Shown here in pieces: positions 17,826 to 35,964 of a stretch of DNA of 64,000 nt. The position numbers were made by a program, and so were the translations under genes. Each line of letters starts with the position of its first letter. Position 1 is the stretch's first letter. Under the pieces are notes generated by a model, which saw nothing but the letters and a program-made list of their open reading frames with translations, was not told the DNA's origin and ran no database searches. Location: the IMG/VR virus record IMGVR_UViG_3300029787_005266, positions 27,043-91,042 of that record; one strand, given 5' to 3'. The stretch comes from a virus.

Positions 17826-18147
17826 AATATATTATCAAGACGAAGAAATTACCACAGTGACAACACAGACTGCAGAAGGTGAATACATTGTGGTTGATTC
17901 AAAAAAATGGCTAGATGTACAAAATAGTCCATCAGCATGGAAAGTAATTGATAAAACACTGGAGAAAAAGATTATAGATCGTACAAATGGAAAAAAGAAA
18001 AAGAAATTTACAGTGAAAGGTCATGACACATTTCCAGGATGGGTAATAAAAAAATATCAACTGTATACAGCCATAGAATATGCTATTGAGGAACCTGAGT
18101 GGTTTGACCCCGAAAAACATGCAGTAGTAGGATATGAAGATGATTGA
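17809..18147 (+). CDS. Small unknown protein in modification cluster
   Basis: 112 residues. Two in-frame ATG codons exist at 17803 and 17809; the AAGGGAG ribosome site lies two bases from the first and eight from the second, so the second is chosen. The sequence has a basic patch (TNGKKKKKFTVKGHD) and an acidic C terminus (EEPEWFDPEKHAVVGYEDD). No family recognised. It overlaps both neighbours and so is translationally coupled to the GT-like genes on either side. A small partner or chaperone of one of them is possible. Confidence 0.55.
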   Translation: MPLEYRIYYQDEEITTVTTQTAEGEYIVVDSKKWLDVQNSPSAWKVIDKTLEKKIIDRTNGKKKKKFTVKGHDTFPGWVIKKYQLYTAIEYAIEEPEWFDPEKHAVVGYEDD

Positions 18148-19018
18148 TGTAGCAGACTTGGATGTAATTTTTTTAAGTTATAACGAACCAAACAAAGAAC
18201 ACAACTGGGCAGATTTACGTTCTAAATGTCCGTGGGCAAAACGTGTGGACGGTGTAGAAGGTTCTGATGCGGCACACAAAGCGGCAGGAGAAGCATCAAG
18301 CACAGAACGTTTTATTTTGATAGACGGAGACAACATTGTAAATCCTGCCCTATTTGATCAACAATTTGATATAGATAGTATGCCATCAGACGCAGTAATA
18401 CGTTATCAAGGATTGAATATTGTGAATGGATTAAAATATGGCAATGGCGGCGTGTCTTCTTGGACTAGGAAGTTTGTCAAAGAAATGAAGACACATGAAA
18501 ACTCACAAGGCGATGATGAAAGTCTAATTGAATTTTGTTTTCACAATCAATATGTTGCAATTCAAGAATGCTATTCTACTACTGTTATGAACAGCACTGA
18601 CAAACAAGCATGGCAGGCTGGATTCAGAGAAGGTGTCAAAATGAGTCTTGATGAAGGCAAACGGGTATCACCGGCAAATTTTGTGAAAAACATATGGCGC
18701 GGAAATTTGAGAAATTTGTGTATTTGGATGAGTGTTGGTGCTGATGTAAAGAATGGTCTATGGGCAATATATGGTGCTTGCCAAGGTTGTCTTTGGACCA
18801 CACTGCAACAGGATTGGGATCATTCTATTACACGTGACTTTACAGAATTAGACAATATATGGGATCAAACTATTGATCAAGGTGACGAAAGCCGAAAAAC
18901 AGCTATTAAGGAGATGCACAATGACTTGAACTATCATTTAGGATTAAATGTTGCACTACTAGATGATGAACAATCCAAGTTTGTTAAATTTATAAATTCA
19001 TGTCCAGCGACTACTTAA
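18140..19018 (+). CDS. GT-A-like protein, paralogue of the C-terminal domain of the 1000-residue repeat protein
   Basis: 292 residues. AGGA lies seven bases before the ATG at 18140, which is preferred over the ATG six bases earlier. The protein starts with DVIFLSYNEP, then AKRVDGVEG and AHKAAGEAS, then an IDGDN acidic motif (Asp62, Asp64). The same order (IIFISYDEP, AKRVHGIKG, YHKAAETS) occurs in the C-terminal ~220 residues of the long repeat protein at 29.7-32.7 kb, and NGLKYGxxG is shared downstream. The acidic motif suggests a GT-A-type glycosyltransferase. It precedes the radical SAM series and overlaps its first gene by 19 bases. Confidence 0.6.
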   Translation: MIDVADLDVIFLSYNEPNKEHNWADLRSKCPWAKRVDGVEGSDAAHKAAGEASSTERFILIDGDNIVNPALFDQQFDIDSMPSDAVIRYQGLNIVNGLKYGNGGVSSWTRKFVKEMKTHENSQGDDESLIEFCFHNQYVAIQECYSTTVMNSTDKQAWQAGFREGVKMSLDEGKRVSPANFVKNIWRGNLRNLCIWMSVGADVKNGLWAIYGACQGCLWTTLQQDWDHSITRDFTELDNIWDQTIDQGDESRKTAIKEMHNDLNYHLGLNVALLDDEQSKFVKFINSCPATT

Positions 19019-20367
19019 CAGATGCCAACAAGGCAAAACTAAAACTAGATAAGATTTCTGATTCTATGTGTCTGGCAAAATGGATGCAGACTTCTTTACA
19101 CCTTACAAATGGCATGACAAACTCTTGCTATCATCCACCATTACACAAAATAGATGTAGAGCAAATCAAAACAAATCCTTCTAAATTACACAACACTGAT
19201 GAAAAGAAACAGCAACGTGATCTAATGATAAATGGAAAAAGACCAGAAGGTTGTTCATACTGTTGGAAGTTAGAAGATGACAAACAGATGAGTGATCGAC
19301 ATTATAGGTCAGGAGAACCATGGGCAATGGATCATTATCAAAATATTTTAGATAATCCACAAGCAGATATTGTGCCTACATATGTTGAGGTCGATTTCAG
19401 TAATGCATGTAACTTCAAATGTTCATATTGTTCGCCACAATTTTCAACTGCGTGGGCAAAAGAAACAGAAGAACATGGATCATGGCCAACATCAACACCA
19501 CATAATGATCCAGCACATTTTAAAGGTGACAGAAAAGTTATGCCACAAAATGATAATCCATATGTTGAAGCATTTTGGAAATGGTGGCCAGAACTGTATC
19601 CACAATTACGTCATTTTAGAATGACAGGTGGTGAACCTATGATGGATAAAAATACATTTAGGGTGTTTGATTATGTAATAGAAAATCCAAAAAAAGATTT
19701 GCATTTAAACGTAACTTCTAATTTTTGTCCACCTACTCCTGCACTAGGTGACAGATACTTTAACATGGTAAAAACAATGTGTGATGGAGCGATGATAGAA
19801 CACTTCATGCAATTTGTATCTTTAGATGCTTGGGGAGAAAGAGCAGAGTATATAAGAAACGGAATGGATTTTGGCACTGTATGGTCAAACGTACACAGAT
19901 ACTTGCATGATATTAAAGGTTACAATTCTATTACATTTATTATTACAATGAACAATCTTAGTGTGTCTAGTTTAAAAGAATTATTAGAAAACATTTTAAG
20001 ATTAAGAGAACAATATTCTACAACATATCAACGGGTGTGGTTCGACACACCTATTTTAAGGTTTCCCATATGGCAACATATAGGATTGTTGGACGAATCC
20101 TTTAACCATTATTTCGAGGAGGCTATAGAGTTTATGGAGCAACACCGACATGACTCTAACATGGCAGGGTTTAGAGATTTTGAAATTGCTAAACTTACTC
20201 GGACATACCGCATAATGCAACAAGGACTGGACAACAAGGAACAACACCTAGCAAACTTTTGGCGTTTCTTTCGAACTCATGACTCGAGACGTGAAACAGA
20301 TTTGTTAGGTGTTTTTCCAGAATACAAAGATTGGTTTAAACAATGTCAACAAGCAACGAAGATTTAA
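19000..20367 (+). CDS. Radical SAM enzyme 1 with N-terminal twitch-type Cys domain
   Basis: 455 residues. Radical SAM cluster motif CNFKCSYC (Cys137, Cys141, Cys144) and SAM-contact motif GGEP at 210-213. Before the core is an auxiliary Cys set: Cys24, Cys43 (NSCYHP) and the Cys85-x2-Cys88 pair (EGCSYCWKLED). This is the N-terminal twitch/SPASM-like arrangement of phage radical SAM proteins, where the auxiliary [4Fe-4S] domain comes first instead of last. The reaction is unknown; relatives modify peptides or sugars by radical chemistry. It is closest to the next gene, with which it shares the HPxxHKID and HNTxEKKxQR segments. Confidence 0.85.
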   Translation: MSSDYLTDANKAKLKLDKISDSMCLAKWMQTSLHLTNGMTNSCYHPPLHKIDVEQIKTNPSKLHNTDEKKQQRDLMINGKRPEGCSYCWKLEDDKQMSDRHYRSGEPWAMDHYQNILDNPQADIVPTYVEVDFSNACNFKCSYCSPQFSTAWAKETEEHGSWPTSTPHNDPAHFKGDRKVMPQNDNPYVEAFWKWWPELYPQLRHFRMTGGEPMMDKNTFRVFDYVIENPKKDLHLNVTSNFCPPTPALGDRYFNMVKTMCDGAMIEHFMQFVSLDAWGERAEYIRNGMDFGTVWSNVHRYLHDIKGYNSITFIITMNNLSVSSLKELLENILRLREQYSTTYQRVWFDTPILRFPIWQHIGLLDESFNHYFEEAIEFMEQHRHDSNMAGFRDFEIAKLTRTYRIMQQGLDNKEQHLANFWRFFRTHDSRRETDLLGVFPEYKDWFKQCQQATKI

Positions 20368-21689
20368 AATATAGAAGAGAGGTCCTAGACCCAAAATCTT
20401 CATCCTTCTGTGGAGCCAAATGGTATAATGCCACTATATGGTTAGGTTCTGGCATGACCACAAGTTGCCATCATCCTTTGCCACACAAAATTGATTTAGA
20501 AGCAGTAAAAAATAATCCCAAAGCTCTGCATAACACACCCGAGAAAAAATTACAACGTGAGCAGATGCAGGCAGGTGAAAGACCTGCAGGTTGTGAATAT
20601 TGTTGGAAAATAGAAGACCTAGGTGATAACAGTATATCTGACAGAGTATACAAATCAAACATATATTCAAATGAAGATTTAGAGACAGCATTTAACACAC
20701 CTTGTCAAAAAGATGTAGATTTACAAACATTAGAAATATCATTTGATAGGACTTGCAATTTTGCTTGTTCTTATTGTAATCCTGCTTTTTCTACTACGTG
20801 GGTAAAAGATATCAAACAACACGGAGCATATGAAAAACTACAATCAGACGGCAGAAATCATTTTACTCATGTACATGAATCATCACAACTGTATGGTTAT
20901 CAAGAATACAATCCCTACATAGAAGCATTTTGGAAGTGGTGGGATTCAGACTTACATCGTACATTGAAAGAATTAAGAGTCACAGGTGGTGAACCTTTGA
21001 TGAGTGCAGACATGTGGAAACTGTTTGATTGGTTCAAGGATAATCATGGCAAGTCAGATACTAGGCTAGCAATTAATTCGAATCTGTGTCCTAAAGACAA
21101 ATTAATGGATCAGTTGATTGAAAAGTCACACTATGTCAAAAACTTCGATGTCTATACTTCAGCTGAAGCAATGGGAACCAGAGCAGAGTATATTAGAGAT
21201 GGCATGGACTTTGCATTATGGAAAAAGAATTGTCTGCGTCTTATAAATGAAGGCAGTTTGTCAGGATTGCATGTAATGATGACTGTGAATGCATTGTGTT
21301 TAGATTCATTGCCAGAAATGATTGATCTCTTAGTAAGTTGGAAACGCAAGTATGGTCCTGATTACCCGAATTTTACTCTCAATATATTACGTTTTCCGTC
21401 ATTTCAGTCAGCAGTAGTATTGCCAACAAGTATCAAAAAAGAATGCATTGAGCAATTAACAAAGCAAACACATGATTATTACAATGATTTGCATGGTATG
21501 GAACTTAATCAAATGCTGAGATTAATAGAATACCTTAAAGAAGTCGAAAGTCCTCATGAGGGAGCGGACAATGTGGATAAATTACAGAGTGACTTCAAGA
21601 ACTTTTATTCACAGTATGATAAACGCAGAGGCAAAGACTTTGCAAATACATTTGGTAACAAAATGGTAACATGGTATGAGCAGTTATAA
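20343..21689 (+). CDS. Radical SAM enzyme 2 with N-terminal twitch-type Cys domain
   Basis: 448 residues. Radical SAM motif CNFACSYC (Cys138, Cys142, Cys145) and a TGGEPLM segment. The N-terminal auxiliary cysteines Cys23, Cys42, Cys84 and Cys87 align one-to-one with those of the preceding enzyme, and YNPYIEAFWKWW is shared with its NPYVEAFWKWW. The two are clear tandem duplicates that have diverged. The start overlaps the previous gene by 25 bases. Cytoplasmic. The substrate is unknown; duplication suggests two related positions or substrates in one pathway. Confidence 0.85.
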   Translation: MSTSNEDLKYRREVLDPKSSSFCGAKWYNATIWLGSGMTTSCHHPLPHKIDLEAVKNNPKALHNTPEKKLQREQMQAGERPAGCEYCWKIEDLGDNSISDRVYKSNIYSNEDLETAFNTPCQKDVDLQTLEISFDRTCNFACSYCNPAFSTTWVKDIKQHGAYEKLQSDGRNHFTHVHESSQLYGYQEYNPYIEAFWKWWDSDLHRTLKELRVTGGEPLMSADMWKLFDWFKDNHGKSDTRLAINSNLCPKDKLMDQLIEKSHYVKNFDVYTSAEAMGTRAEYIRDGMDFALWKKNCLRLINEGSLSGLHVMMTVNALCLDSLPEMIDLLVSWKRKYGPDYPNFTLNILRFPSFQSAVVLPTSIKKECIEQLTKQTHDYYNDLHGMELNQMLRLIEYLKEVESPHEGADNVDKLQSDFKNFYSQYDKRRGKDFANTFGNKMVTWYEQL

Positions 21690-22956
21690 AGACAAAATGC
21701 CCACACAAGTGGATGCTGACAAACTGACAGATAAGCAAAAGTTTTTGTTGAACGATTCTAAATATTTTTGCACACTGCCTTGGACACATTTACACGCTTA
21801 TCCGAATGGAGCCGCATATCCTTGTTGTCTTGCAAAACATGAATTTCCCATTGGGTCTATGAAAGAAAACACTATGAAAGAATTATGGAATAGTGCAGAC
21901 ATGAAAGACATCAGGAAAAACATGTTGAATGAAAAACCATCCAAACAATGTACCAAGTGTTATGAGCAAGAAGAACATGGATGGACGTCAATGCGAGAAT
22001 CGTCTAATATACGTTATGGGCACCACATTGACAAAGTTCCACTTACAAAAGATGATGGAACTTATGATGATGTGAACATGATATATTGGGATATACGTTT
22101 TTCCAATCTGTGCAATTTGTCATGCAGATCCTGTGGCACATGGTTTTCTTCAAACTGGTATGATGACCAAGTAGCATTGTGGGGAGATCCTGGACACCCG
22201 AAAGTTACATATGCTGGCACCACTAAAATGGATGCCTATGAACAACTTATTGAATATTTGCCAATGGTCGAACAGGTATATTTTGCAGGTGGTGAACCTC
22301 TTATTATGGAAGAACATTATAAAATTTTACAAGCTCTTATAGATACAGGCAAAGCTGATAGTGTGCGGTTACTTTACAATACAAATTTAACCAGACTGTC
22401 GTACAAAAAAACAAATGTATTAGATATTTGGCCTGAATTTAAAGATGTGGCAGTAGGGGCATCTTTAGATGCTATGGGGCCGAGAGCAGAACTTATGCGT
22501 AATGGAACAAAATGGGCCGATGTAGAACGTAACAGAGAAGATATGTTGAAAAAATGTCCTGATGTTGATTTTTACATATCGCCAACTGTAGGCATTTTTA
22601 ACTATTCACACATAATTGACTTTCATAATGATTGGGTGCAAAAAGGATTCATCAGAGAAGGTGATATAAATGTAAACATGATACAAGATCCATTACATTA
22701 TAGAATAGATGTAATTACTCCAAAAATGAAAAAAGAAGTTGAACCAAAGTACAAAGAACACATAGAAAAGATTAGGCCAAAAGATCATTTGAATCGAGCC
22801 ACAGGTGGATTTGAATCTGCATTGAATATGATGATGGCCGATGATAGGAGTGATCTTATACCTACTTTCAAAAGAATCACATCACAGTTGGATAGACATC
22901 GTGGACAGGAAACACATGAAATATTTCCTGAGTTGTCGGAGATACTAATTGACTAA
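21676..22956 (+). CDS. Radical SAM enzyme 3 with N-terminal SPASM/twitch-like domain
   Basis: 426 residues. The N-terminal domain has the typical order CTLPW (Cys32), PCC (Cys50/51), ELWNS, then CTKCYEQE (Cys92, Cys95). The radical SAM motif is CNLSCRSC (Cys146, Cys150, Cys153), followed by FAGGEPLIM. This belongs to a second subgroup with the two genes after it, which share the CxxPW-PCC-WNS-CxxC layout. The start overlaps the upstream stop by fourteen bases. Proteins of this layout are named twitch-domain radical SAM proteins in phages; none has a firmly known reaction that I can cite. Confidence 0.85.
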   Translation: MSSYKDKMPTQVDADKLTDKQKFLLNDSKYFCTLPWTHLHAYPNGAAYPCCLAKHEFPIGSMKENTMKELWNSADMKDIRKNMLNEKPSKQCTKCYEQEEHGWTSMRESSNIRYGHHIDKVPLTKDDGTYDDVNMIYWDIRFSNLCNLSCRSCGTWFSSNWYDDQVALWGDPGHPKVTYAGTTKMDAYEQLIEYLPMVEQVYFAGGEPLIMEEHYKILQALIDTGKADSVRLLYNTNLTRLSYKKTNVLDIWPEFKDVAVGASLDAMGPRAELMRNGTKWADVERNREDMLKKCPDVDFYISPTVGIFNYSHIIDFHNDWVQKGFIREGDINVNMIQDPLHYRIDVITPKMKKEVEPKYKEHIEKIRPKDHLNRATGGFESALNMMMADDRSDLIPTFKRITSQLDRHRGQETHEIFPELSEILID

Positions 22957-24109
22957 AATTTGTACATTGCCTTGGATGCATTTAGAAACTACTCCGTTGG
23001 GCGAATATCGACCATGCTGTCTTGCAGAAGAATCAATCAAACGTTCAGATGGTACGCCATACGACATATCAAAAGGTGACACTATCAAAGATGCATTCAA
23101 TTCTGAATACATGGAGAATATGCGTGATGAATTTTTACAAGGTGGACAGCCTGAAACTTGTAGCAAGTGTTGGTCTTTAGAAGAAGCAGGTGGTACATCG
23201 AAAAGGATGATATCAAATGAAAAGTTTGGGATTAACACTGATGAAAAAGGTATTACATTCTTAGATTTAAAACTAGGCAATATTTGTAATTTAAAGTGCA
23301 GAATCTGTGGAGGATTTTCATCGTCTAAATGGGCCGCCGAAGAAATAAAGCAGGGCAGTGAAAATGCTAAAAGCTGGCTCAAAGCAGGCATGTGGCCACG
23401 CAAAACTGATTCATTATGGAACGAAGTTGTTGATATGTTGCCGCAAATAGAACATTTTGAATTTACTGGCGGCGAACCTTTTATGATTCAAGAACATTTT
23501 GACCTGTTAGAAAAAAGTGTTGAACTAGGCTATGCTAAACAGCAAGAAATACATTATAATACAAATGGCACACAGTTTCCAGAATATGCTATGAAACATA
23601 TATGGCCACATTTTAAAGATGTAGAAATAGCATTTAGTATTGATGACATAAGAGCAAGATTTGAATATCAGAGATATGGAGCCAAATGGGATCAAGTGAA
23701 CGAAAATATACGCAAGTTCAATGAATTAAAATCCAACAGTAAAAATATTTCAACACAGATTTGTTGCACAATTAACATCCAAAACATTTATAACTTAGAC
23801 AATATGGCTGATTGGATAAAGCAACAAAACTTTGATTATGTGTTTTACAATTATCTACATGAAGCAAAAGAATGGAATGTGCAATATTTGCCTATTCATT
23901 TGAAGCAAGAAATTAAAAAGAAACTTGAAGCATATGATGGAGACTTATGGCATTATAAACAGATACAAAATGCAATAAACTTTATGATGTCTGCAAATTT
24001 ATATTCAGAAGAAATGGACCATAAACGCAAGATAAAAATAAAACTGAGTGATCAATTTAGAAACGAATCATTTGCAGAAACTTTTCCAGAATTAAAAGAG
24101 TTAGTATGA
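22949..24109 (+). CDS. Radical SAM enzyme 4 with N-terminal SPASM/twitch-like domain (TTG start)
   Basis: 386 residues, the shortest of the five. Start is TTG within TTGACTAA, overlapping the upstream stop by eight bases, with GGAG about eight bases before it; no ATG exists before the first essential Cys (Cys5). Auxiliary cysteines are Cys5, Cys23/24, Cys71 and Cys74, the radical SAM motif is CNLKCRIC (Cys113, Cys117, Cys120), and FTGGEPFMI follows. The shorter N terminus begins right at the CTLPW motif. Presumably acts in the cytoplasm on the same class of substrate as its neighbours. Confidence 0.83.
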   Translation: MTKICTLPWMHLETTPLGEYRPCCLAEESIKRSDGTPYDISKGDTIKDAFNSEYMENMRDEFLQGGQPETCSKCWSLEEAGGTSKRMISNEKFGINTDEKGITFLDLKLGNICNLKCRICGGFSSSKWAAEEIKQGSENAKSWLKAGMWPRKTDSLWNEVVDMLPQIEHFEFTGGEPFMIQEHFDLLEKSVELGYAKQQEIHYNTNGTQFPEYAMKHIWPHFKDVEIAFSIDDIRARFEYQRYGAKWDQVNENIRKFNELKSNSKNISTQICCTINIQNIYNLDNMADWIKQQNFDYVFYNYLHEAKEWNVQYLPIHLKQEIKKKLEAYDGDLWHYKQIQNAINFMMSANLYSEEMDHKRKIKIKLSDQFRNESFAETFPELKELV

Positions 24110-25434
24110 GCAAAGATTGGAAAACACCAGAAGAAGGCAATTTAACATTTTGTATGGCTCCATGGACACATACATATTTGTCACCTACATCTGAAAGACG
24201 TCTGTGTTGTGCTTCTACTGAGCCTGCACAAAGTTTTGAACAATACATTGATACATCTGAAGGCACAAACGAATATAATCCGATGTCTTTACCAGCATGG
24301 TGGAACAGTGATCATATGAAGTCTGTAAGGCAAAGAATGCTTAAGGGCGAGATGTTGCCAGAGTGTCAAGTGTGCAATCACAACATATTACATACTAGTC
24401 CTTACAGAAAACATTTCAATCAACTGTTTGAAAATTTAATTAAAGAAGCATACCAAAAAACAAATTCAGATGGCAGTACAGATATGCCAGTTGTATCTTT
24501 TGATTATAGATTTTCAAACTTGTGTAATTTTATGTGTAGAATGTGCGGATCAAATCTGTCCTCTAGTTGGGAAACTGAAGAAAGAAAATACATTGAAAAT
24601 TTTGACAAAGTTCGACCATGGGCAAGTAAAGAAGTAAAAAAAGCAACTGCAGAATTTGTCGCTAACATGGCAGAACCAGAATTTGAACATGCTATAAAAA
24701 ATAAACAAATCCGTGAAGTGTATTGGGTAGGTGGAGAACCATTGATGTATCATCAACATTGGAAGTTCATGAAAATGATTGTGGACACAGGACAAGCCGG
24801 TAATGTGTATGCAAGGTATAACACTAATTTAAGTAGGATAGTGTTCAAAAATTTAAACCTGTTTGACGATGTACTTTCAAAATTTAGTGCATGGGAAGTG
24901 TGTGCAAGTATAGATGGCACAGGCCCTACAGGCGAATATATTAGATCAGGTTTAGATTGGGAGAAATGGTTAGACAATTGGAAACATGCACACAAGTTTC
25001 AAAACGGTCGGAATAAAATATTAAATTTAGACTTCACTATAACCACAGCAGGAATATGGGAAATAGAAAAAATGTTCGAACTAAGTTTAGAATATAATGT
25101 ACCTATTATTGCAAAACAAACTTTCGCATTCAGTTCCGAAGTATTAATGAGTTGCAGAGCAATACCTAAACACATTTTACAAAGAATATTTTCTAACATT
25201 TTAGAAAGAATAGAGCCACGAGCAACAAAAAAACAAAAAGGTTTAGTGGATCAACTAAAACACATGATACAACAAGGACATTTTGTTGATGACTACCCTG
25301 ATGATTATGAAGAAGGAATAAAAGACGGCAAAGAATTTATTTTACACATGGAAAGTAGAAGAAAAAATCCTGTCACAATGCGTGAAATAATGTGGAAAGA
25401 CAAAGAACTAGGAGAATGGTATGACTCAATATAA
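24106..25434 (+). CDS. Radical SAM enzyme 5 with N-terminal SPASM/twitch-like domain
   Basis: 442 residues, joined to the previous gene by an ATGA overlap. Auxiliary cysteines are Cys16 (CMAPW), Cys34/35, Cys87 and Cys90. The radical SAM motif is CNFMCRMC (Cys140, Cys144, Cys147), followed by WVGGEPLMY. A ~50-residue insertion between the auxiliary domain and the core sets it apart from the other four. The C terminus is Lys/Glu-rich. The SGNH-like gene after it starts fourteen bases before its stop, so all five radical SAM genes and this protein form one coupled message. Confidence 0.85.
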   Translation: MSKDWKTPEEGNLTFCMAPWTHTYLSPTSERRLCCASTEPAQSFEQYIDTSEGTNEYNPMSLPAWWNSDHMKSVRQRMLKGEMLPECQVCNHNILHTSPYRKHFNQLFENLIKEAYQKTNSDGSTDMPVVSFDYRFSNLCNFMCRMCGSNLSSSWETEERKYIENFDKVRPWASKEVKKATAEFVANMAEPEFEHAIKNKQIREVYWVGGEPLMYHQHWKFMKMIVDTGQAGNVYARYNTNLSRIVFKNLNLFDDVLSKFSAWEVCASIDGTGPTGEYIRSGLDWEKWLDNWKHAHKFQNGRNKILNLDFTITTAGIWEIEKMFELSLEYNVPIIAKQTFAFSSEVLMSCRAIPKHILQRIFSNILERIEPRATKKQKGLVDQLKHMIQQGHFVDDYPDDYEEGIKDGKEFILHMESRRKNPVTMREIMWKDKELGEWYDSI

Positions 25435-26101: not shown

Positions 26102-26109
26102 TTACACAT

Positions 26110-26214: not shown

Positions 26215-26217
26215 TCA

Positions 26218-27255
26218 ATGAAAAATACTTTTTGCCTATGGGAATACACTGGAGTAGATTCTATCTACAACACTGGCAAACTTGTTAAAGACCTTACAAC
26301 GTATATCAAAACACAAACATTACAAAACGAAGAAATAATTTTAGATATGTATCCGGAAGGTTATAGTCTACATCATAATGGAGTATGGAGTATTATTGAA
26401 GCAGTGTGTGAAGCATGTGATACACACCCAGCATCTTTGACATTAGTAATTGGGGATATGACTGCCGATTATCCGTGTAACGTGATTATACATCAACCTA
26501 GATGGCTAATGGAAACTGCCGCTGAGTTTCCAAATTTTAAGCAAGATTTCGATAAAGTTGCAGAAAAAAAATTCTTGCACTTCATAGGTCGAGCCACGTG
26601 GGATAGGATAGGGGTCAACAAATATTTGAGAGAAAATTATGCTGATGATTCATGGGTAACAATCGGTCCAACTAGAAACAGACAAAGAGTAATTGATGAC
26701 ACATTTCATGGTTTGACAAACAATCACTTTACTCCTGATCAAATTGTAGACATGATGAAATACACTTTAAATCCTCCAAAAAACTTTTTGGTGGAAACAG
26801 CACGTGAAGATTACACTACGTTTCCAGATAATATGCTACCTTTACAGCATATGTACACCAATGCATTTGTTGAGATAGTACATGAAACAGACATACACGA
26901 TAATAATTTTTTTATAACAGAAAAAACTATCAGGCCAATCTTGTTCAAAAAGCCATTTATAACCATGTGCGGAAAACACTTCTGCAAGAATCTACGCACA
27001 CTAGGTTTTAAAACCTTTGATGATTGGTTTGATGAACGATATGATGAAGTTAATGCTAGACAACGATACGATGCAGTTCTTAAAAGAATTATTAATATTG
27101 GAAAAATGAGCTACAAAGAGTTGTCAGAATGGAACCTAGAAATGCGTGACACTGTTGAACATAATTTTCAGCATCTGCTTACAAAAGGTTGGCTAGAACA
27201 TTTAGACAAATTCGATGTACAATTTTGGCACGATGGCAAGGGACAATTATTATGA
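26218..27255 (+). CDS. Putative transferase (GT10-like C-terminal motif), copy A
   Basis: 345 residues. It is paralogous to the next gene along its whole length: PEGYSLHHNGVWSIIEAV, GDMTADYPCN, FLHFIGRA and FFITEKTIRPILFKKPF align with NEGYGLYANGAWPIIESV, SDMFASYPCN, FGHFIGRA and CFTTEKTLRPIIFKTPF. The E-x-(n)-F-x-TEK-x-x-x-P-I-x-x-x-x-PF segment (TEK near residue 234) resembles the donor-binding motif of fucosyltransferase-type GT10 enzymes, so a GDP-sugar transferase is plausible but not proven. No membrane segment. Coupled to its paralogue by an ATGA overlap. Confidence 0.55.
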   Translation: MKNTFCLWEYTGVDSIYNTGKLVKDLTTYIKTQTLQNEEIILDMYPEGYSLHHNGVWSIIEAVCEACDTHPASLTLVIGDMTADYPCNVIIHQPRWLMETAAEFPNFKQDFDKVAEKKFLHFIGRATWDRIGVNKYLRENYADDSWVTIGPTRNRQRVIDDTFHGLTNNHFTPDQIVDMMKYTLNPPKNFLVETAREDYTTFPDNMLPLQHMYTNAFVEIVHETDIHDNNFFITEKTIRPILFKKPFITMCGKHFCKNLRTLGFKTFDDWFDERYDEVNARQRYDAVLKRIINIGKMSYKELSEWNLEMRDTVEHNFQHLLTKGWLEHLDKFDVQFWHDGKGQLL

Positions 27256-28292
27256 TAGTAGACTCAGTCACAGAGTGTTATGATCTTAATGCATCAGGGC
27301 ATGTAAATTTGCACGAAACATTTCCATCTTTGAAAGATGACCTCCGTGCCTACTTTATCAGATGCAATAAACAAGGAATTAATCCTATTATAGATTTCAC
27401 CAATGAAGGGTATGGATTGTATGCCAATGGTGCGTGGCCAATCATTGAAAGTGTTGCCGAAGAATGTGGGATCAAAATGAATAGATTGACTTTGTACATA
27501 TCTGATATGTTTGCATCATATCCTTGCAACACAATGCCTTTAGTGAATGATAAATGGTTACAAGTGTATACACCAGATTCTGAACCAGATGTGACCGACA
27601 GACTTTTTAAAAAATTTGGTCATTTTATAGGAAGAGCATCACCAGATAGGCTGGCTATGCATGTGATGTTAGAAAAATATCAAAACGATATGTGGTACTC
27701 TATATGGAATGGCTGGGATTTTGATGACAATTTTTTTGCTAGATTAAAAAATTACATTCCATTCAAATTTGACAAAGGCAAACTGATAGGAAGAGCAAGA
27801 GAAGTAGCGGAACAATTACCTCAAAAAAATACATATGAAACTCCTAGTAAAGATGATTTTTATGAATGGCCTAGACAAGTTGCTCCATTACATTTTTATT
27901 ACAAAAATATGTTTGTTGATATTGTAAGTGAAACAGATCTTGACACTTGCTTCACTACAGAAAAAACTTTGAGACCTATTATTTTCAAAACACCATTTTT
28001 GTTAATGGCAGGCAAAGGCACACTGCAAAAATTAAAAGAGATTGGTTTTAAAACATTTAACAATTGGTGGTCAGAAGATTACGACAGGTATTCACACAGA
28101 CAAAGATTGGAAAAAATATTAGACATTGTAGATTGGATTAGTGTACAATACAATGTAAAGGAATTAAAAGCAGAAATGAATAGCATTTTGGAATACAATT
28201 ATAATCATTATGTGAATCAAACGTGGATTCCTATGGCAAAAGAGATGGGTATTCCGGACAGTGCATTTGGAGACACAAGAACATGGGAGTAG
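27252..28292 (+). CDS. Putative transferase (GT10-like C-terminal motif), copy B
   Basis: 346 residues starting at the ATG in the ATGA overlap; a longer in-frame start upstream would overlap the previous gene by 60 bases and is not needed. It is a full-length tandem paralogue of the preceding gene, with the TEKTLRPIIFKTPF segment near residue 236. Fast divergence of the N-terminal third with conservation of the two core blocks suggests different acceptors. The likely donor is a nucleotide sugar. The carbamoyltransferase gene begins ten bases before its stop. Confidence 0.55.
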   Translation: MIVDSVTECYDLNASGHVNLHETFPSLKDDLRAYFIRCNKQGINPIIDFTNEGYGLYANGAWPIIESVAEECGIKMNRLTLYISDMFASYPCNTMPLVNDKWLQVYTPDSEPDVTDRLFKKFGHFIGRASPDRLAMHVMLEKYQNDMWYSIWNGWDFDDNFFARLKNYIPFKFDKGKLIGRAREVAEQLPQKNTYETPSKDDFYEWPRQVAPLHFYYKNMFVDIVSETDLDTCFTTEKTLRPIIFKTPFLLMAGKGTLQKLKEIGFKTFNNWWSEDYDRYSHRQRLEKILDIVDWISVQYNVKELKAEMNSILEYNYNHYVNQTWIPMAKEMGIPDSAFGDTRTWE

Positions 28293-29731
28293 TTTGGGGA
28301 GCATCAGCACACTTTCATGATGCAGGCTTGAGTGTGGTCAAAGATGGCGAAGTTGTATTTGGTGCTCATGCAGAAAGATATTCTGGAGTAAAACATGACA
28401 AGTTGCTAAATCAAGACATTATCAACGAAGCACTTACTTGGGGTAGACCTGATGTAGTTGCATGGTACGAAAAACCATGGAAGAAGAATATTAGAAAGTT
28501 ATGGACTGGCGAATGGCGGTATTCAAAATTTGATACACACCCAAGCAAGTATCTTAAACAGTTTGGCATTGATGCTCCAGTTAAATTGTATGATCATCAT
28601 TACACTCATGCAACAGCAGGATATTTTACATCACCATTTAAAGAAGCAGTCATTGTGGTAGCAGATGCTATTGGAGAGTTTGAATGTATTACTATATGGG
28701 AGGCAAAAGGGAATAAACTAAAAAGACTGGCGTCATGGTCTTATCCTCACTCACTAGGTTTGTTATATTCAGCATTTACTCAAAGATGCGGATTGAAGCC
28801 TATGGATGAAGAGTATATCACAATGGGAATGGCAGGTTGGGGTGAACCTAAGTACGCACATCAAATCAAACAAGAATTTGTAAATCCGACACACTTTCAT
28901 TTGAAGAAAAATGTACACAAAGGAATAGGCAACTGGATGCCAGATGCACAAGTGGAGGATATTGCGGCTTCAATACAACAAGTCACAGAAGAGTGCATTG
29001 ATCAATTGATGTGTACTGCCTACACATGGACAAGAATGAACAATGTGGTTTTTATGGGTGGTGTTGCTCTCAACTGTGTGGCCAACCATTTGTTGCATGA
29101 TTACTTTGATAATGTGTGGATAATGCCCAATCCAGGAGATTGTGGATCTTCACTAGGAGCCGCACTTGCACACCGAGGATCACACGTTAAATGGCCGGGG
29201 CCGTACATTGGCACCAATATTGATAATCCATACCCTGTAGAGGCGTTATTGCACGAATTAGACACCAAAAAGATAGTGGGAGTAGCGTCTGGTCGTGCTG
29301 AATTTGGGCCACGTGCTTTAGGACACAGATCATTGTTAGCAGACCCTAGAGGCACTGAAATTAAAGATCAAGTGAACGCAATAAAACGCAGACAAAAGTT
29401 CAGACCATTTGCTCCTGCAATACTGGAAGAACATGTCCAACACAACTTTAAAATGTGTACCAGTCATTCACCTCATATGCAGTTTGTGGGCGAGTGTTTA
29501 AAACCAGATTTGTATCCAGCAATCATTCATGTGGATGGCACCAGCAGAGTACAAACAGTGGGCAAAAATGATTCAACAGGATTCAGAGCATTGTTAGAAG
29601 CTTGGTATGCTAAAACAGGTTGTCCTATGTTGTTGAATACGTCACTAAACATCAGAGGTGAGCCAATGGTAAACACAAGAGAAGATGCTGATCGCTTCGA
29701 AGAAAAATATGGTGTAAAGGTTTGCTCGTGA
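28283..29731 (+). CDS. NodU/CmcH-family carbamoyltransferase
   Basis: 482 residues, beginning at MGVVWGASAHFHDAG with GGAGA about eight bases upstream; an earlier start would read through the previous gene. Family motifs are complete: DHHYTHATAGYF with metal-binding His (Asp104, His105, His106, His109), GGVALNCVAN, NPGDCGSSLGAAL, GRAEFGPRALGHRSLLADPR, RPFAPAIL and NTSLNIRGEP. These enzymes use carbamoyl phosphate and ATP to put a carbamoyl group on a hydroxyl of a sugar or natural product. Here the acceptor is probably a glycan or modified peptide made by the neighbouring enzymes. The protein is somewhat shorter than typical NodU, mainly at the C terminus. Confidence 0.9.
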   Translation: MGVVWGASAHFHDAGLSVVKDGEVVFGAHAERYSGVKHDKLLNQDIINEALTWGRPDVVAWYEKPWKKNIRKLWTGEWRYSKFDTHPSKYLKQFGIDAPVKLYDHHYTHATAGYFTSPFKEAVIVVADAIGEFECITIWEAKGNKLKRLASWSYPHSLGLLYSAFTQRCGLKPMDEEYITMGMAGWGEPKYAHQIKQEFVNPTHFHLKKNVHKGIGNWMPDAQVEDIAASIQQVTEECIDQLMCTAYTWTRMNNVVFMGGVALNCVANHLLHDYFDNVWIMPNPGDCGSSLGAALAHRGSHVKWPGPYIGTNIDNPYPVEALLHELDTKKIVGVASGRAEFGPRALGHRSLLADPRGTEIKDQVNAIKRRQKFRPFAPAILEEHVQHNFKMCTSHSPHMQFVGECLKPDLYPAIIHVDGTSRVQTVGKNDSTGFRALLEAWYAKTGCPMLLNTSLNIRGEPMVNTREDADRFEEKYGVKVCS

Positions 29732-29732
29732 C

Positions 29733-32700
29733 ATGTATGACAGATATACATTCGAAGGACAAATTACGCAACATAAATCCAACACAGAATGGTATTGGCT
29801 CACAGACAGTCGAGTAGATTATTCTAATTTTAATTTTGATTATGATCCTCCCGATTGGGAAAAACAATTTATACATGCTTTTGGAGATCAACACTCTGTG
29901 CATGGCGGAACCTATCTGGTGCACATCAATCATAATAATGAAACAGACTTTAAATTTGTACCGCAAACAGTAACAAGAAATCAAGCATTTGATGTTTTTA
30001 CTGATACACATGAAATAGACTTTCAATCGGAAACATCAACTGAATGGTATTGGGTGACCAGTCCATTTAATGATTACGTCAATTTTGATTTTACATGGCA
30101 TCCTGCATTATGGGAGAAAAATTTTGTTCATGTTTTTCCTGATCAACACTGCACACATGGCGGCACTTACATTATCCATAAGGATTGTGACTTGGCAAAC
30201 ATTGAATACAAGTATCACAACTTTATCATCCAACGCACTGGATACAATCACCTTCATTGGAAAACTGATGACAGAAATTCATATGCTGGATTCGATTTTA
30301 CTTGGCATCCAGAACCATGGGAAGAAAAATATGTGCATTGTTTCGGCGATCAACATGCTGATGATTCACGCACATATTATGTTGCAGATGAAGTCGACTT
30401 TGCCAATGCAAGGAAATATTATCATCCTAAGACTGTAACATGTCACAAACCATTCCAAAGATTTCATGGTGTAAAAATACAGAACTGTATTACTGAAGAT
30501 GAATACTACTGGATAACCAGCGATGGCAATGATTACTCTAATTTTGATTTTACTTGGCATCCAGATGAATGGCAAAGCAAGTACGTTCATTGCTTCGGAG
30601 ATCAATACTCAGATGATGCTGGAACATACCTCGTGCATCGTGACACTGACATAAACAATGCCAGAACACAGTATCATCCAAATGCCATTACCCGTACAGA
30701 ATCATTTGAACAGTTTCATGTCAAAGGACTGCAAAAATGTGACACCAAACAAGATTGGTATTGGATTGTGGATGATGCAAATGATTACCAAAATTTTGAT
30801 TTCAAATGGCATCCAGAATCATGGAAGGGCAGATATGTCCACTGCTTCGGAGATCAACATTCTGACGATGCAAACACCTATCTAGTACCAAAAGACTGTG
30901 ATTTGGATAATGTCAAAGTAGAGTATCATAATCATGCTTTTCAACGTGTTAAACCATGGAATAGATTCAAAATAAGCGGTCTTAAGACGGTGTATTCGGA
31001 CACGGACTGGTACTGGATCATCTCCGATGAAAATGACTATACAGACTTCGATTTTACATGGCATCCAGAGAGTTGGCAAACCAAATATGTGCATTGTTTC
31101 GGTGATCAACATGCAGATGATTCCAACACATATCTGGTTCACAAAAGTCATGATATTACCAATATCAGATGGCAATATCACCCTGACACTGTTGTCAGAA
31201 CTGCTAAATTTGATATCATAGAATATGATGGAGAATTAAATCATCATGCAGAATCTGATACTGAATGGTATTGGTTAACAAGCAAAGAAAATGATTACTC
31301 TGATTTTGATTTCACATGGCATCCTGAAACAGCACAACGCAAATTTGTTCACGTGTTTGGAGATCAATTTTCAGAAACTTCAGGCACATATTTGATCAAT
31401 AAAGAATTGGATCCAAACGATTGTAGACAACAGTTCCATGAGAACAAAGTTGTACGCAAAACCACAGGCACAATACACAGATGTTCCAACATGATGCCTG
31501 ATGACGAAGGCACAAGATTGTTTTCAAACTTGTTTAATTTCATAAAACGAATAGCAAACAACAGTGATGAAAGAAACATTTGGATTACTGCTTCTATTGT
31601 AGATGATGCTAATTTTGATTACAAATGGCATCCTGCTGACTGGGAATCGAAGTATATTCATGTGTTCCACAATGAACAATCTGAATACGGATATGTAATG
31701 TGGGTGCCACTTGCTGAGTTCAAAAAGCAAATGGACACCTTGCAAAAATTAGAATGGTTCGATACAATAAAATATCATGCAACTGATTTGACCTATCATG
31801 ATCTTCCAGTGAACGAATATTCATTAGGCAAAGGCGCCGCCGAAAAGATACAACAACACACATTTACTCATCACTATGAATGGTTTGTGGAAGACAGTGT
31901 GCTCCAACAAAACTTGCCAAACTATTATCCTGCAAGATGGGACGAAGTCAACATCAATTGTTTTGGTACACATAAGCAAATGTTGTTAGTGCCACGTGAA
32001 GCAAAATCATTTGTAGTCGATCAAGTGTATGATTACCCTGCCATTGATACTCACCAACATAATATATCAACGCAACCTAATGACATAATTTTTATATCAT
32101 ATGATGAACCTATGGCTGATGAAAAATATGAACAACTCATAAAAAAATATCCAAGGGCCAAAAGGGTGCATGGGATAAAAGGTCAGACACAGGCTTATCA
32201 CAAAGCGGCAGAAACATCGAACACTGATTATTTTTTTGCTGTGTTCCCTAAGTTAGATATTCATCCTGACTTTGATTTTGAATATCAAGTTGATAGATTG
32301 CACAATCCCTGTCATTGGATTTTCAACAGTTTCAATCCAGTGAATGGTTTAAAATATGGTCATGAAGGTATAATTCTTTACAATAAAAATCTAGTGCTGG
32401 AAACGACAGATCCTGGAATAGACTTCACAATGTCCAAGGCACATGATTTTGAAGACATTATGAGTACCACAATGCTGTTCAATCAAGATCCATGGTTAGC
32501 ATGGAGAACTGCTTTCCGTGAAGTGGTTAAACTGAATTACTTTAATAGTCAAAAACCTGACAAGATTACACAGGAACGTTTACAGATTTGGTGTACAGTG
32601 GCGGAAGGTGAAAACAGCGAGTGGGTATTGCAAGGAGCGAATGACGGTCAAAAGTTTTTCGAAAGTGGTCAAGATCTAAAATTAAGTTATGATTTTGAAT

Positions 32701-32735
32701 GGTTGAAGAATCAGTTTAATAAGGTTTCCATTTAA
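29733..32735 (+). CDS. 1000-residue aromatic repeat protein with C-terminal GT-like domain
   Basis: The first ~780 residues are eight or nine degenerate repeats of 75-90 residues. The core of each is EWYW(L/I)-x(6-8)-DYxxFDFTWHP, then W-x-x-KYVHCFGDQH, then T-Y-L-V. Strong conservation of Trp, His, Asp and Cys suggests a shared ligand or metal. From about residue 783 a domain starting IIFISYDEP matches the GT-A-like protein at 18.1-19.0 kb, although its acidic motif is replaced (FPKLD instead of IDGDN). No signal peptide. I do not recognise the repeat. It could be a sugar-binding scaffold, or the substrate or template of the radical SAM enzymes. Confidence 0.65.
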   Translation: MYDRYTFEGQITQHKSNTEWYWLTDSRVDYSNFNFDYDPPDWEKQFIHAFGDQHSVHGGTYLVHINHNNETDFKFVPQTVTRNQAFDVFTDTHEIDFQSETSTEWYWVTSPFNDYVNFDFTWHPALWEKNFVHVFPDQHCTHGGTYIIHKDCDLANIEYKYHNFIIQRTGYNHLHWKTDDRNSYAGFDFTWHPEPWEEKYVHCFGDQHADDSRTYYVADEVDFANARKYYHPKTVTCHKPFQRFHGVKIQNCITEDEYYWITSDGNDYSNFDFTWHPDEWQSKYVHCFGDQYSDDAGTYLVHRDTDINNARTQYHPNAITRTESFEQFHVKGLQKCDTKQDWYWIVDDANDYQNFDFKWHPESWKGRYVHCFGDQHSDDANTYLVPKDCDLDNVKVEYHNHAFQRVKPWNRFKISGLKTVYSDTDWYWIISDENDYTDFDFTWHPESWQTKYVHCFGDQHADDSNTYLVHKSHDITNIRWQYHPDTVVRTAKFDIIEYDGELNHHAESDTEWYWLTSKENDYSDFDFTWHPETAQRKFVHVFGDQFSETSGTYLINKELDPNDCRQQFHENKVVRKTTGTIHRCSNMMPDDEGTRLFSNLFNFIKRIANNSDERNIWITASIVDDANFDYKWHPADWESKYIHVFHNEQSEYGYVMWVPLAEFKKQMDTLQKLEWFDTIKYHATDLTYHDLPVNEYSLGKGAAEKIQQHTFTHHYEWFVEDSVLQQNLPNYYPARWDEVNINCFGTHKQMLLVPREAKSFVVDQVYDYPAIDTHQHNISTQPNDIIFISYDEPMADEKYEQLIKKYPRAKRVHGIKGQTQAYHKAAETSNTDYFFAVFPKLDIHPDFDFEYQVDRLHNPCHWIFNSFNPVNGLKYGHEGIILYNKNLVLETTDPGIDFTMSKAHDFEDIMSTTMLFNQDPWLAWRTAFREVVKLNYFNSQKPDKITQERLQIWCTVAEGENSEWVLQGANDGQKFFESGQDLKLSYDFEWLKNQFNKVSI
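29793..32010 (+). repeat. Tandem protein-coding repeats (WYW...FDFTWHP...KYVHCFGDQH)
   Basis: Eight or nine coding repeats of roughly 225-270 bases. Units 3 to 6 are the most alike (TWHP and CFGDQ in each, encoded near 30.3, 30.56, 30.81 and 31.06 kb). Units 1-2 and 7-9 are more worn. Nucleotide identity is lower than protein identity, so the repeat is old and under selection rather than a recent expansion. Confidence 0.8.
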
Positions 32736-33921
32736 GTTCTAGTTTTTCTAACCAACTATTTCCTGCATGTTTGGCTTCATCAACTAATAATGTTATAGTG
32801 TGATCAAACGCATCCAAAAATCCTACGTCAAATGGTCTTGGTTTAATCCCAGGGCCTGACAGATGTTTTTTCACAATATCTTCAATCGAATCTTTTTTGA
32901 CGTTTCCGATGATATATCTGTCACTGCCTGGTCTGTCAAGAAATCCACTTTCATGATACACATACTGATTACCTAGACTATCCACAGCAGACGCCACTTG
33001 TGGAAAGCCATACCCGTCCATTTGTTCATAGTTTGCCATTTTGATTGGTCCGTCAATCAATCCATGTCTTACAGGATGTAATGCATAACCATAATCAATG
33101 TGTAGATGTTTCATGTCATCGTCGTTTGCACATTCTTCTTCAACTTCTAGAAATATATTGTGTAATGTGCTTCTCTCTACATTAGAAATATAATTGTTAC
33201 TCTGGCTAAAATCTTCCCGTAGTGTTATGAATGATATTTTGTAGTCACTGACTGCATTTATTTGTTTGATCATACGGAAAACTTTTTTTAGATCATTGCT
33301 GTGTCCGGGCAATATTATCCAGTTGACTCCTAGTCGTAAAGGTTTGTCTGACTCTGACATACGTTTACAAAAATTCTGTAAGTTTTTTACAACCATTTTA
33401 TGTGACTTATTATTTTTTGTGACTGAATAATAACTTTGATCATCGTATCCATAGAGACTTACACGCATCACTTCTAGGTCTAAGATACCAATCTGTTTAT
33501 CTACAAAGTTTTCTGTTAATGCGTAACCGTTGGTGTACAGTTGCATTTTAAATCCTTTTGAATTTCCGTAACGAATAATCTCCCCAATGTGTGGGTTTGT
33601 CAAAGGTTCTAATCCTCCACTTATTCTGAATCGGTCTTGCCAATTTTTGTCTGACTTAGGATCCTGATCAATAATGCTTTTGAAAACATCCAAACTGTCA
33701 TCAGCAATAGATCTTTCATATTTTGCATCATAGTTTCTTCCGCAAAAAGTACAAAAGAATTGACAGTTAAGGCCTGGATATAATCCTATTCGGTTAGGAT
33801 ATTTGTAAGTGTTGTTTACTGCATGTGACAGAGAACCATTGGCTAACAACGGTAATATTGTGTTGTTCCAGTATTTGTTTGCTTGATCTTCGCCTTTGGT
33901 ATGTTTATACCCTAATCTCAT
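32716..33921 (-). CDS. Radical SAM enzyme 6 (classic architecture)
   Basis: 401 residues. Radical SAM motif CQFFCTFC (Cys53, Cys57, Cys60), near the N terminus and without the preceding twitch domain of the five plus-strand enzymes. RISGGLEPL stands in the place of GGEP. The C-terminal third has no obvious cysteine-rich SPASM set. The gene follows the aminotransferase with a 17-base overlap and converges on the repeat-protein gene, overlapping it by 20 bases. With its epimerase and aminotransferase neighbours it may act on a nucleotide sugar. Substrate unknown. Confidence 0.8.
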   Translation of the reverse strand: MRLGYKHTKGEDQANKYWNNTILPLLANGSLSHAVNNTYKYPNRIGLYPGLNCQFFCTFCGRNYDAKYERSIADDSLDVFKSIIDQDPKSDKNWQDRFRISGGLEPLTNPHIGEIIRYGNSKGFKMQLYTNGYALTENFVDKQIGILDLEVMRVSLYGYDDQSYYSVTKNNKSHKMVVKNLQNFCKRMSESDKPLRLGVNWIILPGHSNDLKKVFRMIKQINAVSDYKISFITLREDFSQSNNYISNVERSTLHNIFLEVEEECANDDDMKHLHIDYGYALHPVRHGLIDGPIKMANYEQMDGYGFPQVASAVDSLGNQYVYHESGFLDRPGSDRYIIGNVKKDSIEDIVKKHLSGPGIKPRPFDVGFLDAFDHTITLLVDEAKHAGNSWLEKLELKWKPY

Positions 33922-35050
33922 TGTGATAGAATTCCTTAACCTTTTGTATTATATAATCCTGTTGATCTGTGTCTAGGTGTTGACTTGAAGGCAAACTCAC
34001 AATGTGTTTGCTAACTTGCTCGGTGATAGGTAAAGGATGCCGTACGCCATTATGGTAAGGTTCAAACACATGACAAGGATGTCTGAAGTGTATGTTTGTG
34101 TAAATTTCTTGGTCTTTAAGCCACTGCATTAATTCGTCACGTCTTTCTACTTGGATATTATAAACGTAGAAAGTCATCTTGCTCCATGGCACTTCAGGCA
34201 ATGTTTTTATTATGCCTTTCACATCTTTGAATGCATCATTATATTTTCTGCAAATTTCTTGTTTCTTATTCATCCATTTATCTACATAAGGAAGTTTTGC
34301 ACACAACACAGCCGCTTGAATATTATCTATCCTTGTGTTGTAACCAATTTTTTCATATTCGAATCTAACACGTCTTCCATGATCTCTATACATTTTGCAT
34401 TCTTCGATTAAATCTTTCCTCCCCATAACACAGCCAGCATCACCTATGGCCCCTAAATTTTTCACTGGATTAAAACTTACACAAGCAAGATCCACTCCTT
34501 TGACAGCACCTAATTTGGTTCCTAAATAATCTGAACCAAATGCTTGAGCGGCATCTTCGATCAAATACAAATTGTGTTTGTTTTTTATTTCGATAATTTT
34601 GTTTATGTCTGGTGATTGTCCATATATGTCTACAAACAGAATTGCTTTTGTTTTGTCTGTTATAGCATGTTCAATTTTGTCTATGTCTATGTGATAGTAA
34701 TCATCGATGTCAACAAACACAGGAGATGCACCAACTACTGCAATAGATTCTGGAGTACTAACGAATGTATGACTAGGAACTATGACTTCATCGCCTGGTC
34801 CTATACCGCAGGCCTTCAAAGCAATAATCAATGCCATTGTACCACTTCCACATGACGCAACTGATTCACAACCTATGTAGTCCATAATCATTTGTTCTAA
34901 TGTGTCTCGATATCCTGTGGTAGTTCCAAACACTGCATTGCCAGTAATGAAATTGTTTGTGTCTAATACTTCTTGTATTGCTTGATCAATATCGTGTTTG
35001 CATTCTTGATATTGTGATTGTAAATCTGTAAATTCTATAGGTAACTTCAT
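33905..35050 (-). CDS. DegT/DnrJ/EryC1-family sugar aminotransferase
   Basis: 381 residues, full length for the family. The PLP-binding pieces are visible: SGTMALIIALKA, DEVIVPSHTFVST, LIEDAAQAFGS (Asp166) and SFNPVKNLGAIGDAGC with the Schiff-base Lys197. It should make an amino sugar from a nucleotide-linked keto sugar, using glutamate as amino donor (family knowledge). The gene is tied to the epimerase upstream by an ATGA overlap, so the two probably act in sequence on one nucleotide sugar. Good relatives are found in O-antigen pathways. Confidence 0.88.
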   Translation of the reverse strand: MKLPIEFTDLQSQYQECKHDIDQAIQEVLDTNNFITGNAVFGTTTGYRDTLEQMIMDYIGCESVASCGSGTMALIIALKACGIGPGDEVIVPSHTFVSTPESIAVVGASPVFVDIDDYYHIDIDKIEHAITDKTKAILFVDIYGQSPDINKIIEIKNKHNLYLIEDAAQAFGSDYLGTKLGAVKGVDLACVSFNPVKNLGAIGDAGCVMGRKDLIEECKMYRDHGRRVRFEYEKIGYNTRIDNIQAAVLCAKLPYVDKWMNKKQEICRKYNDAFKDVKGIIKTLPEVPWSKMTFYVYNIQVERRDELMQWLKDQEIYTNIHFRHPCHVFEPYHNGVRHPLPITEQVSKHIVSLPSSQHLDTDQQDYIIQKVKEFYHNEIRV

Positions 35051-35964
35051 AATATTGTATCGTGATTAATGTCTTCTAATGCTTGTTTCAAATCAAACTT
35101 ACTGGAATATCCAATTGATTTAAGTTTTGTTATATTTAATGCTCCGCGATTGGGAAAATATTTCTCTCTGTTTACAGGTAAAACTTTGCTCTTACTATTG
35201 TAAAAATTAACCACAGACTCTGCAATTTCTTTTATGGTGAATGTTTGTTCACTGCTGATATTGAATGTTTCATTTTTTACAGTATCCTTTAATGTTAAAG
35301 TTACTGCTTCTATCAGGTCTTTCACATATGTTATATCTGTTGTAGAATCTTGTGCATAAAATATGTCTTGATCTTGTAATGCTGATTTAATAAATTTAGG
35401 CATAAGTCTGTCTGCAATATCGTAATCCCCAAACACACAAATTGGTCTAAAAATAACATAATCAACAGTATCTCTTGTAATTGCTTTTAACAGTTTTTCT
35501 TGTGTAAGTTTTAAACTACCATACAAATTTATAGGTGAACACAAACTGTTTTCATCTGCATCATCTTGATAATTTCCATACACATTTGAACTGCTGAACA
35601 ATATGTATTTTTTTGGTTTGTACGAAAAAGTGTTTACCAGTCCGGTGATCATTGTCTCTGATGCCACAGTCGGATATTGTTCAACTAAACTTACTCTTGG
35701 ATACGATGCAAGATTTATTACAACATCTGGTTGGAAGTCTGTATACAATGAATCAATTTTACTTCTTTCAAGTATTGATCCATTAATAGTGTTGACGTTA
35801 TTCCAATTTTTGATTCTTGAACTGATAATTTTTTGTTTGATAGTTTCGTTCTCAATACCAAATAAAGTAAAATTATCGTAGACGCAAATTTGGTGATCCT
35901 CTTGCAAATGGTTTACTAGGTGGTGCCCGATAAATCCAGCACCACCAAATATAAGGATCTTCAT
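35047..35964 (-). CDS. NAD-dependent sugar epimerase/dehydratase (extended SDR)
   Basis: 305 residues. The start MKILIFGGAGFIGHHLVNHL has the Gly-x-x-Gly-x-x-Gly NAD site. SSSNVYGNY and NLYGSLKLTQEK give the catalytic Ser and Tyr-x3-Lys of extended short-chain dehydrogenases. RPICVFG and an ISSEQTFTIKEIA segment follow as in UDP-glucose-epimerase-like proteins. It interconverts or dehydrates a nucleotide sugar and presumably supplies the aminotransferase encoded next. Both genes lie downstream of the sigma70-type promoter at 36.9 kb, so they are probably expressed early. Confidence 0.88.
   Translation of the reverse strand: MKILIFGGAGFIGHHLVNHLQEDHQICVYDNFTLFGIENETIKQKIISSRIKNWNNVNTINGSILERSKIDSLYTDFQPDVVINLASYPRVSLVEQYPTVASETMITGLVNTFSYKPKKYILFSSSNVYGNYQDDADENSLCSPINLYGSLKLTQEKLLKAITRDTVDYVIFRPICVFGDYDIADRLMPKFIKSALQDQDIFYAQDSTTDITYVKDLIEAVTLTLKDTVKNETFNISSEQTFTIKEIAESVVNFYNSKSKVLPVNREKYFPNRGALNITKLKSIGYSSKFDLKQALEDINHDTIL

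Follow-up and report, generated by a model that had tools for sequence, protein, structure and literature searches.

Glycosyltransferases of the GT-A fold, such as B4GALNT1, the fucosyltransferase WrtF and SpsA, usually carry an acidic DxD motif. Metal-free GT-A enzymes that use basic residues also exist, for example the GT14 enzyme C2GnT. In K4CP and CHSY3-CHPF, GT-A-like modules are combined within one chain or complex, and CHPF is a non-catalytic partner. In phages, a comparable gene setting is the host recognition cluster of pelagimyophages, which are T4-like aquatic phages; the accessible part of the report on it describes tail fibres, glycosyltransferases and radical SAM cassettes, with modification of the LPS O-chain inferred by the authors (PMC7029224). 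Here we compare with these systems a gene from a 91-kb virus record of an uncultured tailed phage, which encodes a long repeat array ending in a GT-A-like domain. The features discussed are listed in Table 1; the window is the whole stretch of DNA that was analysed, 64,000 nucleotides of that record.

The array ORF is free of internal stops. When scored with a repeat profile of 320 units, from which the window's own units were excluded, it contains eight units with i-E 1.1e-17 to 3.2e-23 and a weak ninth (aa 712-753, E 0.002), and none of 200 shuffled copies of the protein matches; the eight or nine units counted in the initial annotation are thus recovered. A further weak match (aa 828-877, E 0.002) falls inside the C-terminal domain. 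The units mostly recur every 84-86 aa, with two exceptions of 69 and 103. The initial annotation also described invariant Trp, His, Asp and Cys in each unit, suggestive of a repeated binding site. Across 328 family units, Trp (97%), the Asp of FDF (93%) and a Pro (95%) are near-invariant. The His of WHP is present in seven of the eight window units but in 50% of units family-wide, and the description fails for the Cys of HCFGDQH, found in four of the eight and in 9% of the 328; these Cys counts rule out a metal or Cys site in every unit. The conserved aromatic residues align with GT-A core strands, and thus the fold explains their conservation at least as well as a repeated binding site would.

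Table 1. Features of the array gene and its surroundings (positions in the window)
Feature	Position	Strand	Remarks
Whole repeat protein, 1000 aa	29733..32735	+	open ORF; conserved in IMG/VR
Unit 1 (aa 15-78)	29775..29966	+	nearest to unit 1 of short relatives L002-L005
Unit 2 (aa 100-164)	30030..30224	+	lineage-specific expansion
Unit 3 (aa 169-233)	30237..30431	+	lineage-specific expansion
Unit 4 (aa 253-317)	30489..30683	+	lineage-specific expansion
Unit 5 (aa 337-401)	30741..30935	+	lineage-specific expansion
Unit 6 (aa 421-485)	30993..31187	+	lineage-specific expansion
Unit 7 (aa 507-571)	31251..31445	+	lineage-specific expansion
Unit 8 (aa 610-674)	31560..31754	+	nearest to penultimate unit of short relatives
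Degenerate ninth unit (aa 712-766)	31866..32030	+	weak, E 0.0015-0.002
C-terminal GT-A-like domain (aa 780-1000)	32070..32732	+	fold match Z 11.1; Lys at aa 840 replaces second Asp of DxD
Separate GT-A protein, intact DGD, paralogue of C-terminal domain	18134..19018	+	orthologues in 34/37 records
Five tandem twitch-domain radical SAM proteins (NF033640)	19000..25434	+	relatives in 56/79 loci
NodU-like carbamoyltransferase	28283..29731	+	PF16861 3.8e-51, PF02543 2.9e-39; 64/79 loci; ends 1 base before array ORF
DesII-like radical SAM protein	32716..33921	-	TIGR04426 5.8e-96; convergent, 20-base overlap with array 3' end
DegT/DnrJ/EryC1 sugar aminotransferase	33905..35050	-	PF01041 1.9e-96; 61/79 loci
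NAD-dependent sugar epimerase/dehydratase	35047..35964	-	PF01370 1e-31; 64/79 loci

Judging from profile comparisons, the repeat unit very probably derives, by shortening, from the core that bears DxD in the GT-A family of the C-terminal domain. A profile of 328 units, to which the C-terminal domain contributed none, aligns with the profile of that domain at an hhalign probability of 94.2 (not above 95) and P 1.1e-7; the 12 control profiles, taken from neighbouring cassette families, reach probabilities <1 and P 0.066 or worse against the repeat. For the penultimate unit, which is longer, the alignment to the domain begins at the domain's first strand and extends across 74 columns (probability 91.4, P 9.2e-7). 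A separate test set comprised 957 ORFs from 80 contigs that encode DxD transferases. In it, the repeat profile matches inside the DxD glycosyltransferase domain in 38 of the 140 separate ORFs, in none of the 817 other ORFs and in none of the 957 reversed decoys; in the three alignments displayed, the match covers the DxD strand and the strands following it. Eighteen of the 140 ORFs have a unit preceding the DxD domain. We read these intermediate architectures as part of a probable series from the single DxD enzyme, through the enzyme with one added unit, to long arrays. By descent from a GT-A domain the units belong with GT-A, and a single unit is predicted by homology to take the GT-A fold.

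The C-terminal domain itself is 32% identical to the 18.1-kb protein over aa 780-993 (E 2.6e-20), and at the site of the acidic motif it reads AVFPKLD as against LIDGDN. In all 75 array proteins of the domain set (L052, L058, L090 and L091 excluded), the second Asp of DxD is a Lys, in the context [FPNW]-[AGP]-K; D-[GA]-D is found in 52 of 52 aligned separate DxD domains (every second one longer than 190 aa, up to 50, plus two named ones). Lys-type and DxD groups separate in the domain tree, with a label of 0.75 or 0.997 depending on the rooting. An AlphaFold2 model of a relative, L019, made with 51 sequences, has pLDDT 93.1 and pTM 0.85. Among the GT-A enzymes that its C-terminal domain resembles, the best match is B4GALNT1 (Z 11.7, 140 residues at rmsd 2.9), with WrtF (Z 10.8) and SpsA (Z 10.1) also matched. 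For the window domain the match to B4GALNT1 has Z 11.1; the B4GALNT1 matches of the two domains have rmsd 2.8-2.9 with 135-141 residues aligned. The model of the window protein averages pLDDT 75: its last units and C-terminal domain reach about 90, the middle units 50-60. Both models are of whole proteins, and their fold matches fall mainly in the C-terminal domain. In these model comparisons the C-terminal domain has the alpha/beta/alpha fold of GT-A; it lacks the DxD that is usual, not universal, in that class.

Thus, the initial annotation was right to call the domain a paralogue of the 18.1-kb GT-A-like protein and to note the loss of its acidic motif. Its wider label, an undescribed aromatic repeat protein, holds in that the array belongs to no named family; the repeat, being itself derived from a GT-A core, is not an unrelated aromatic domain. 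Nor did a known domain with a plain structural role emerge, the outcome it had named as counting against it: the repeat HMM matches a sugar-transferase core.

The separate enzyme travels with the arrays. Among 37 array-bearing records, picked on length of record, 34 also encode a separate transferase of ~300 aa (A5 profile, E 1e-82 or better), and every one of these 34 reads LIDGD, LVDGD or IIDGD, with 45-65% identity to the window protein at 18134. The three without it are 66-105 kb and may be fragments. In the reciprocal comparison, no Lys-type array protein is apparent in 15 DxD-type records; the array profile matches the C-terminal region only in 13 of them, and two (G040 and G052) also have unit-like stretches. 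Taken together, the counts indicate that arrays accompany the DGD enzyme, yet DxD enzymes exist without long arrays.

The array family is widespread in environmental viruses and common in aquatic virus contigs: a profile scan found at least 105 contigs with a confirmed family match, of which 80 were kept, and among the matches listed an ORF has 1-26 units under the strict cut-off and up to 30 under a looser one. The close IMG/VR relatives are L001 (1000 aa, 96% identical) and five proteins of ~400-510 aa with far fewer units. A scan of 84,980 prokaryote genomes returned three contigs, all in MAGs, which are likely viral; L089 has array units, and the other two (L090 and L091) bear DxD-type domains. 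The three are binned as Pacearchaeota, Neisseriaceae and Gammaproteobacteria and have cassette-like genes alongside. Searched with tblastn against 50,697 phage isolate records, the window protein, its 18.1-kb paralogue, L019 and L091 were unmatched and L003 gave one chance match (E 8). The carbamoyltransferase, used as a control query, matched 136 of these records, which indicates that the search works; a radical SAM paralogue from 19000-25434 matched only two records, of Vibrio phages. Megablast of 18134-29728 gave no match. The array protein has no convincing match in Pfam, PHROGs, NCBIfam or PDB sequences; the best library scores in the array family are phrog_30527 (E 0.0039, from two of 28 members) and phrog_7612 (E 0.0098, from one of six). 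In the literature searched, with preprints and most subscription journals outside it, the repeat was not found described. The GT-A fold is known; by the searches made, the use of a GT-A core as a long repeat would be new.

The array has grown by internal duplication within the window lineage. In the unit tree, window unit 1 falls with the first units of L002-L006 and window unit 8 with their penultimate ones, and units 2-7 group with one another; this lineage has thus gained six units. A side observation concerns L006:10310-11509 and L011: a tblastn match there spans the whole query, and the ORF begins ~300 bases into it, with the first unit either damaged or lying outside the frame. Between the window and L001, dN/dS is ~0.035 for units 2-7 (0.0133/0.383) and ~0.04 for the C-terminal domain (0.0169/0.420); values this low mean that the array is kept by strong purifying selection.

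Conservation of this kind could equally mark the C-terminal domain as a working transferase that is independent of metal, in which the invariant Lys, placed at the usual site of the metal, would neutralise the donor diphosphate and the array would serve as an acceptor-binding or processivity module. The constancy of the Lys, the many near-invariant residues of the domain and its low dN/dS all fit such an enzyme. The intact DGD paralogue in 34 of the 37 array-bearing records speaks against it, since transferase activity need not then belong to the C-terminal domain, and we regard an active domain as possible but unlikely.

The genes around the array point to a glycan pathway. Linked families were counted in 79 loci, obtained after removing 13 duplicates (L001, L007-L012, L025, L033, L047, L048, L056 and L079); many of the 79 end at contig ends. 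In addition to those in Table 1, they include the family of ORF 35971-36558 (61 loci), a transferase-like family with no family match that is presumably GT-B (59 loci) and an SGNH-like family (30 loci), so labelled from a sub-threshold Pfam match of one member. The DesII-like protein scores 322 bits against a curated NCBIfam cut-off of 450 for DesII (dTDP-4-amino-4,6-dideoxyglucose ammonia-lyase) and has relatives in only four loci, window included; that it works like DesII is a lead only. Together with the adjoining DegT aminotransferase and epimerase, it suggests a deoxyamino-sugar pathway. In the flanks fetched for arrays of the L060/L062/L088 type, a carbamoyltransferase lies close upstream and there is no DegT or epimerase gene. 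Linkage within the cassette may partly stem from the common descent of related phages.

The same linkage, of radical SAM and carbamoyltransferase genes to the array (Table 1), is what favours a suggestion in the initial annotation, that the array is the multi-site substrate of these enzymes. We now consider this very unlikely. The conserved unit residues largely coincide with core positions of the GT-A domain, conservation does not extend to Cys, radical SAM genes are missing from the limited flanks fetched for some arrays, and the sugar enzymes of the cassette point to small-molecule or glycan substrates. A carbamoyltransferase could also belong to a DNA-modification pathway of the 5-carbamoyloxymethyl-cytosine type, with the array binding DNA: the accessible text of PMC8670742 describes a 5hmC carbamoyltransferase from a phage-like contig. 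It also gives a residue rule for thymidylate synthases, in which Asp marks the dCMP enzyme. All 32 thymidylate synthases neighbouring the relatives have the dUMP-type Asn and none the expected Asp, and nothing of the 5hmC carbamoyltransferase cluster was found in the window; a role in DNA modification was accordingly rejected as very improbable.

Several other genes in the window are worth describing. Immediately upstream of the 18.1-kb region are fibre-like genes; relatives of 13387-14934 and 14934-15926 occur in 16 and 20, respectively, of 80 DxD loci (6-kb flanks). Two proteins without family matches are encoded at 16220-17825 (+), with relatives in 46 and 45 of the 80 DxD loci; the first, which contains an IDSD stretch, is a possible further transferase. 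On the other side, the label 'HNH endonuclease' for 36900-38087 (-), from phrog_1314 (1.8e-114), looks doubtful, given a HEVLH-type motif and an adjoining ATPase-like gene. Divergent paralogues of one family, which we take to be amidinotransferase-like, are found at 45798-46778 (-) and 46802-47869 (+) and in 23 of the 79 loci. A DNA polymerase of phrog_262 lies downstream.

The number of repeats shifts quickly: the C-terminal domains of L074 and L087 are 92.6% identical, yet the two proteins are 738 and 1330 aa long. Such change would suit a virion component, similar to a tail fibre or adhesin, that binds host glycans and whose repeat number is tuned to hosts, and tailed-phage structural genes matching tail and fibre families do lie upstream of the array region. 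Against this, the array protein has no structural match in PHROGs, and its gene sits within the enzyme cassette, adjoining the carbamoyltransferase in the window. We consider a virion role rather improbable.

None of the units carries the acidic motif, and the short ones also miss the initial strand-loop portion of the donor site, which makes sugar transfer by the units unlikely. With cores that go back to a sugar-binding fold and an active paralogue alongside, the array is most readily taken for a holder or scaffold. The overall reading, an array of shortened GT-A cores acting as scaffold or holder in a phage glycan pathway, is one to which we give an even chance; the more specific mechanism, in which the array is mostly non-catalytic and serves the DGD transferase as scaffold or substrate-holding partner, is plausible but falls slightly short of that. 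The sequence comparisons support common descent, the Lys substitution, linkage to sugar genes, co-occurrence with the DGD enzyme and purifying selection. In the proposed mechanism, the array and its GT-A-like cap would have come from the DGD enzyme's own family through repeated internal duplication. The array itself would carry out no sugar transfer of the usual metal-dependent kind; it would bind an acceptor, a growing glycan or a tail fibre bearing the glycan, and present this partner to the DGD enzyme, the carbamoyltransferase and other transferases. From the neighbouring genes we infer that the product would be an amino-deoxy sugar, possibly carbamoylated, which the pathway would place on the tail fibre of the phage or on the surface of its host.

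More speculatively, and in keeping with the ruler suggested in the initial annotation, the row of disarmed cores might be a length-setting ruler or track for a phage-made glycan, with a cap that holds an invariant Lys in the place of the metal; we think this possible but unlikely. If it were true, the arrays would form a new class of repeat protein, in which the sugar-nucleotide-binding core of a glycosyltransferase has been multiplied; long repeat arrays seldom arise from enzyme cores. The related viruses hold every stage, from the DxD enzyme through the enzyme plus one unit to arrays of up to ~26 units ending in a Lys-type domain, and the change from catalytic fold to a repeat for binding or scaffolding is thus testable. 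With its abundance in aquatic virus contigs, its conserved glycan cassette and no name in the libraries, the family may account for some of the sugar machinery, so far poorly understood, of environmental phages.

Among described systems, the pelagimyophage cluster resembles the array cassette in bringing tail fibres, glycosyltransferases and radical SAM genes together; the repeat protein is not among the parts described in the accessible section of that report (PMC7029224). The BFVD entries A0A6J5LK21 and A0A6J5L5L5, uncharacterised proteins of uncultured Caudovirales phages that carry no function annotation, are full-length structural matches to L019 (~40% identity over ~580 columns, TMq 0.89) and are deposited members of the family. 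K4CP and CHSY3-CHPF, both among the fold matches of L019 residues 97-445, are like the array in having at least two GT-A-like modules per chain or complex and differ from it in that its modules are many and truncated. The rmsd of 12-17 A in these alignments to two-domain polymerases does not support a like arrangement of modules, and we treat them as no more than a hint. The GT-A DxD enzymes B4GALNT1, WrtF and SpsA share the predicted fold of the C-terminal domain, and the repeat descends in sequence from a viral DxD GT-A domain. Unlike these enzymes, all the array proteins compared have x-x-Lys at the motif, and the core is repeated as truncated units, ~26 at most among the matches listed.
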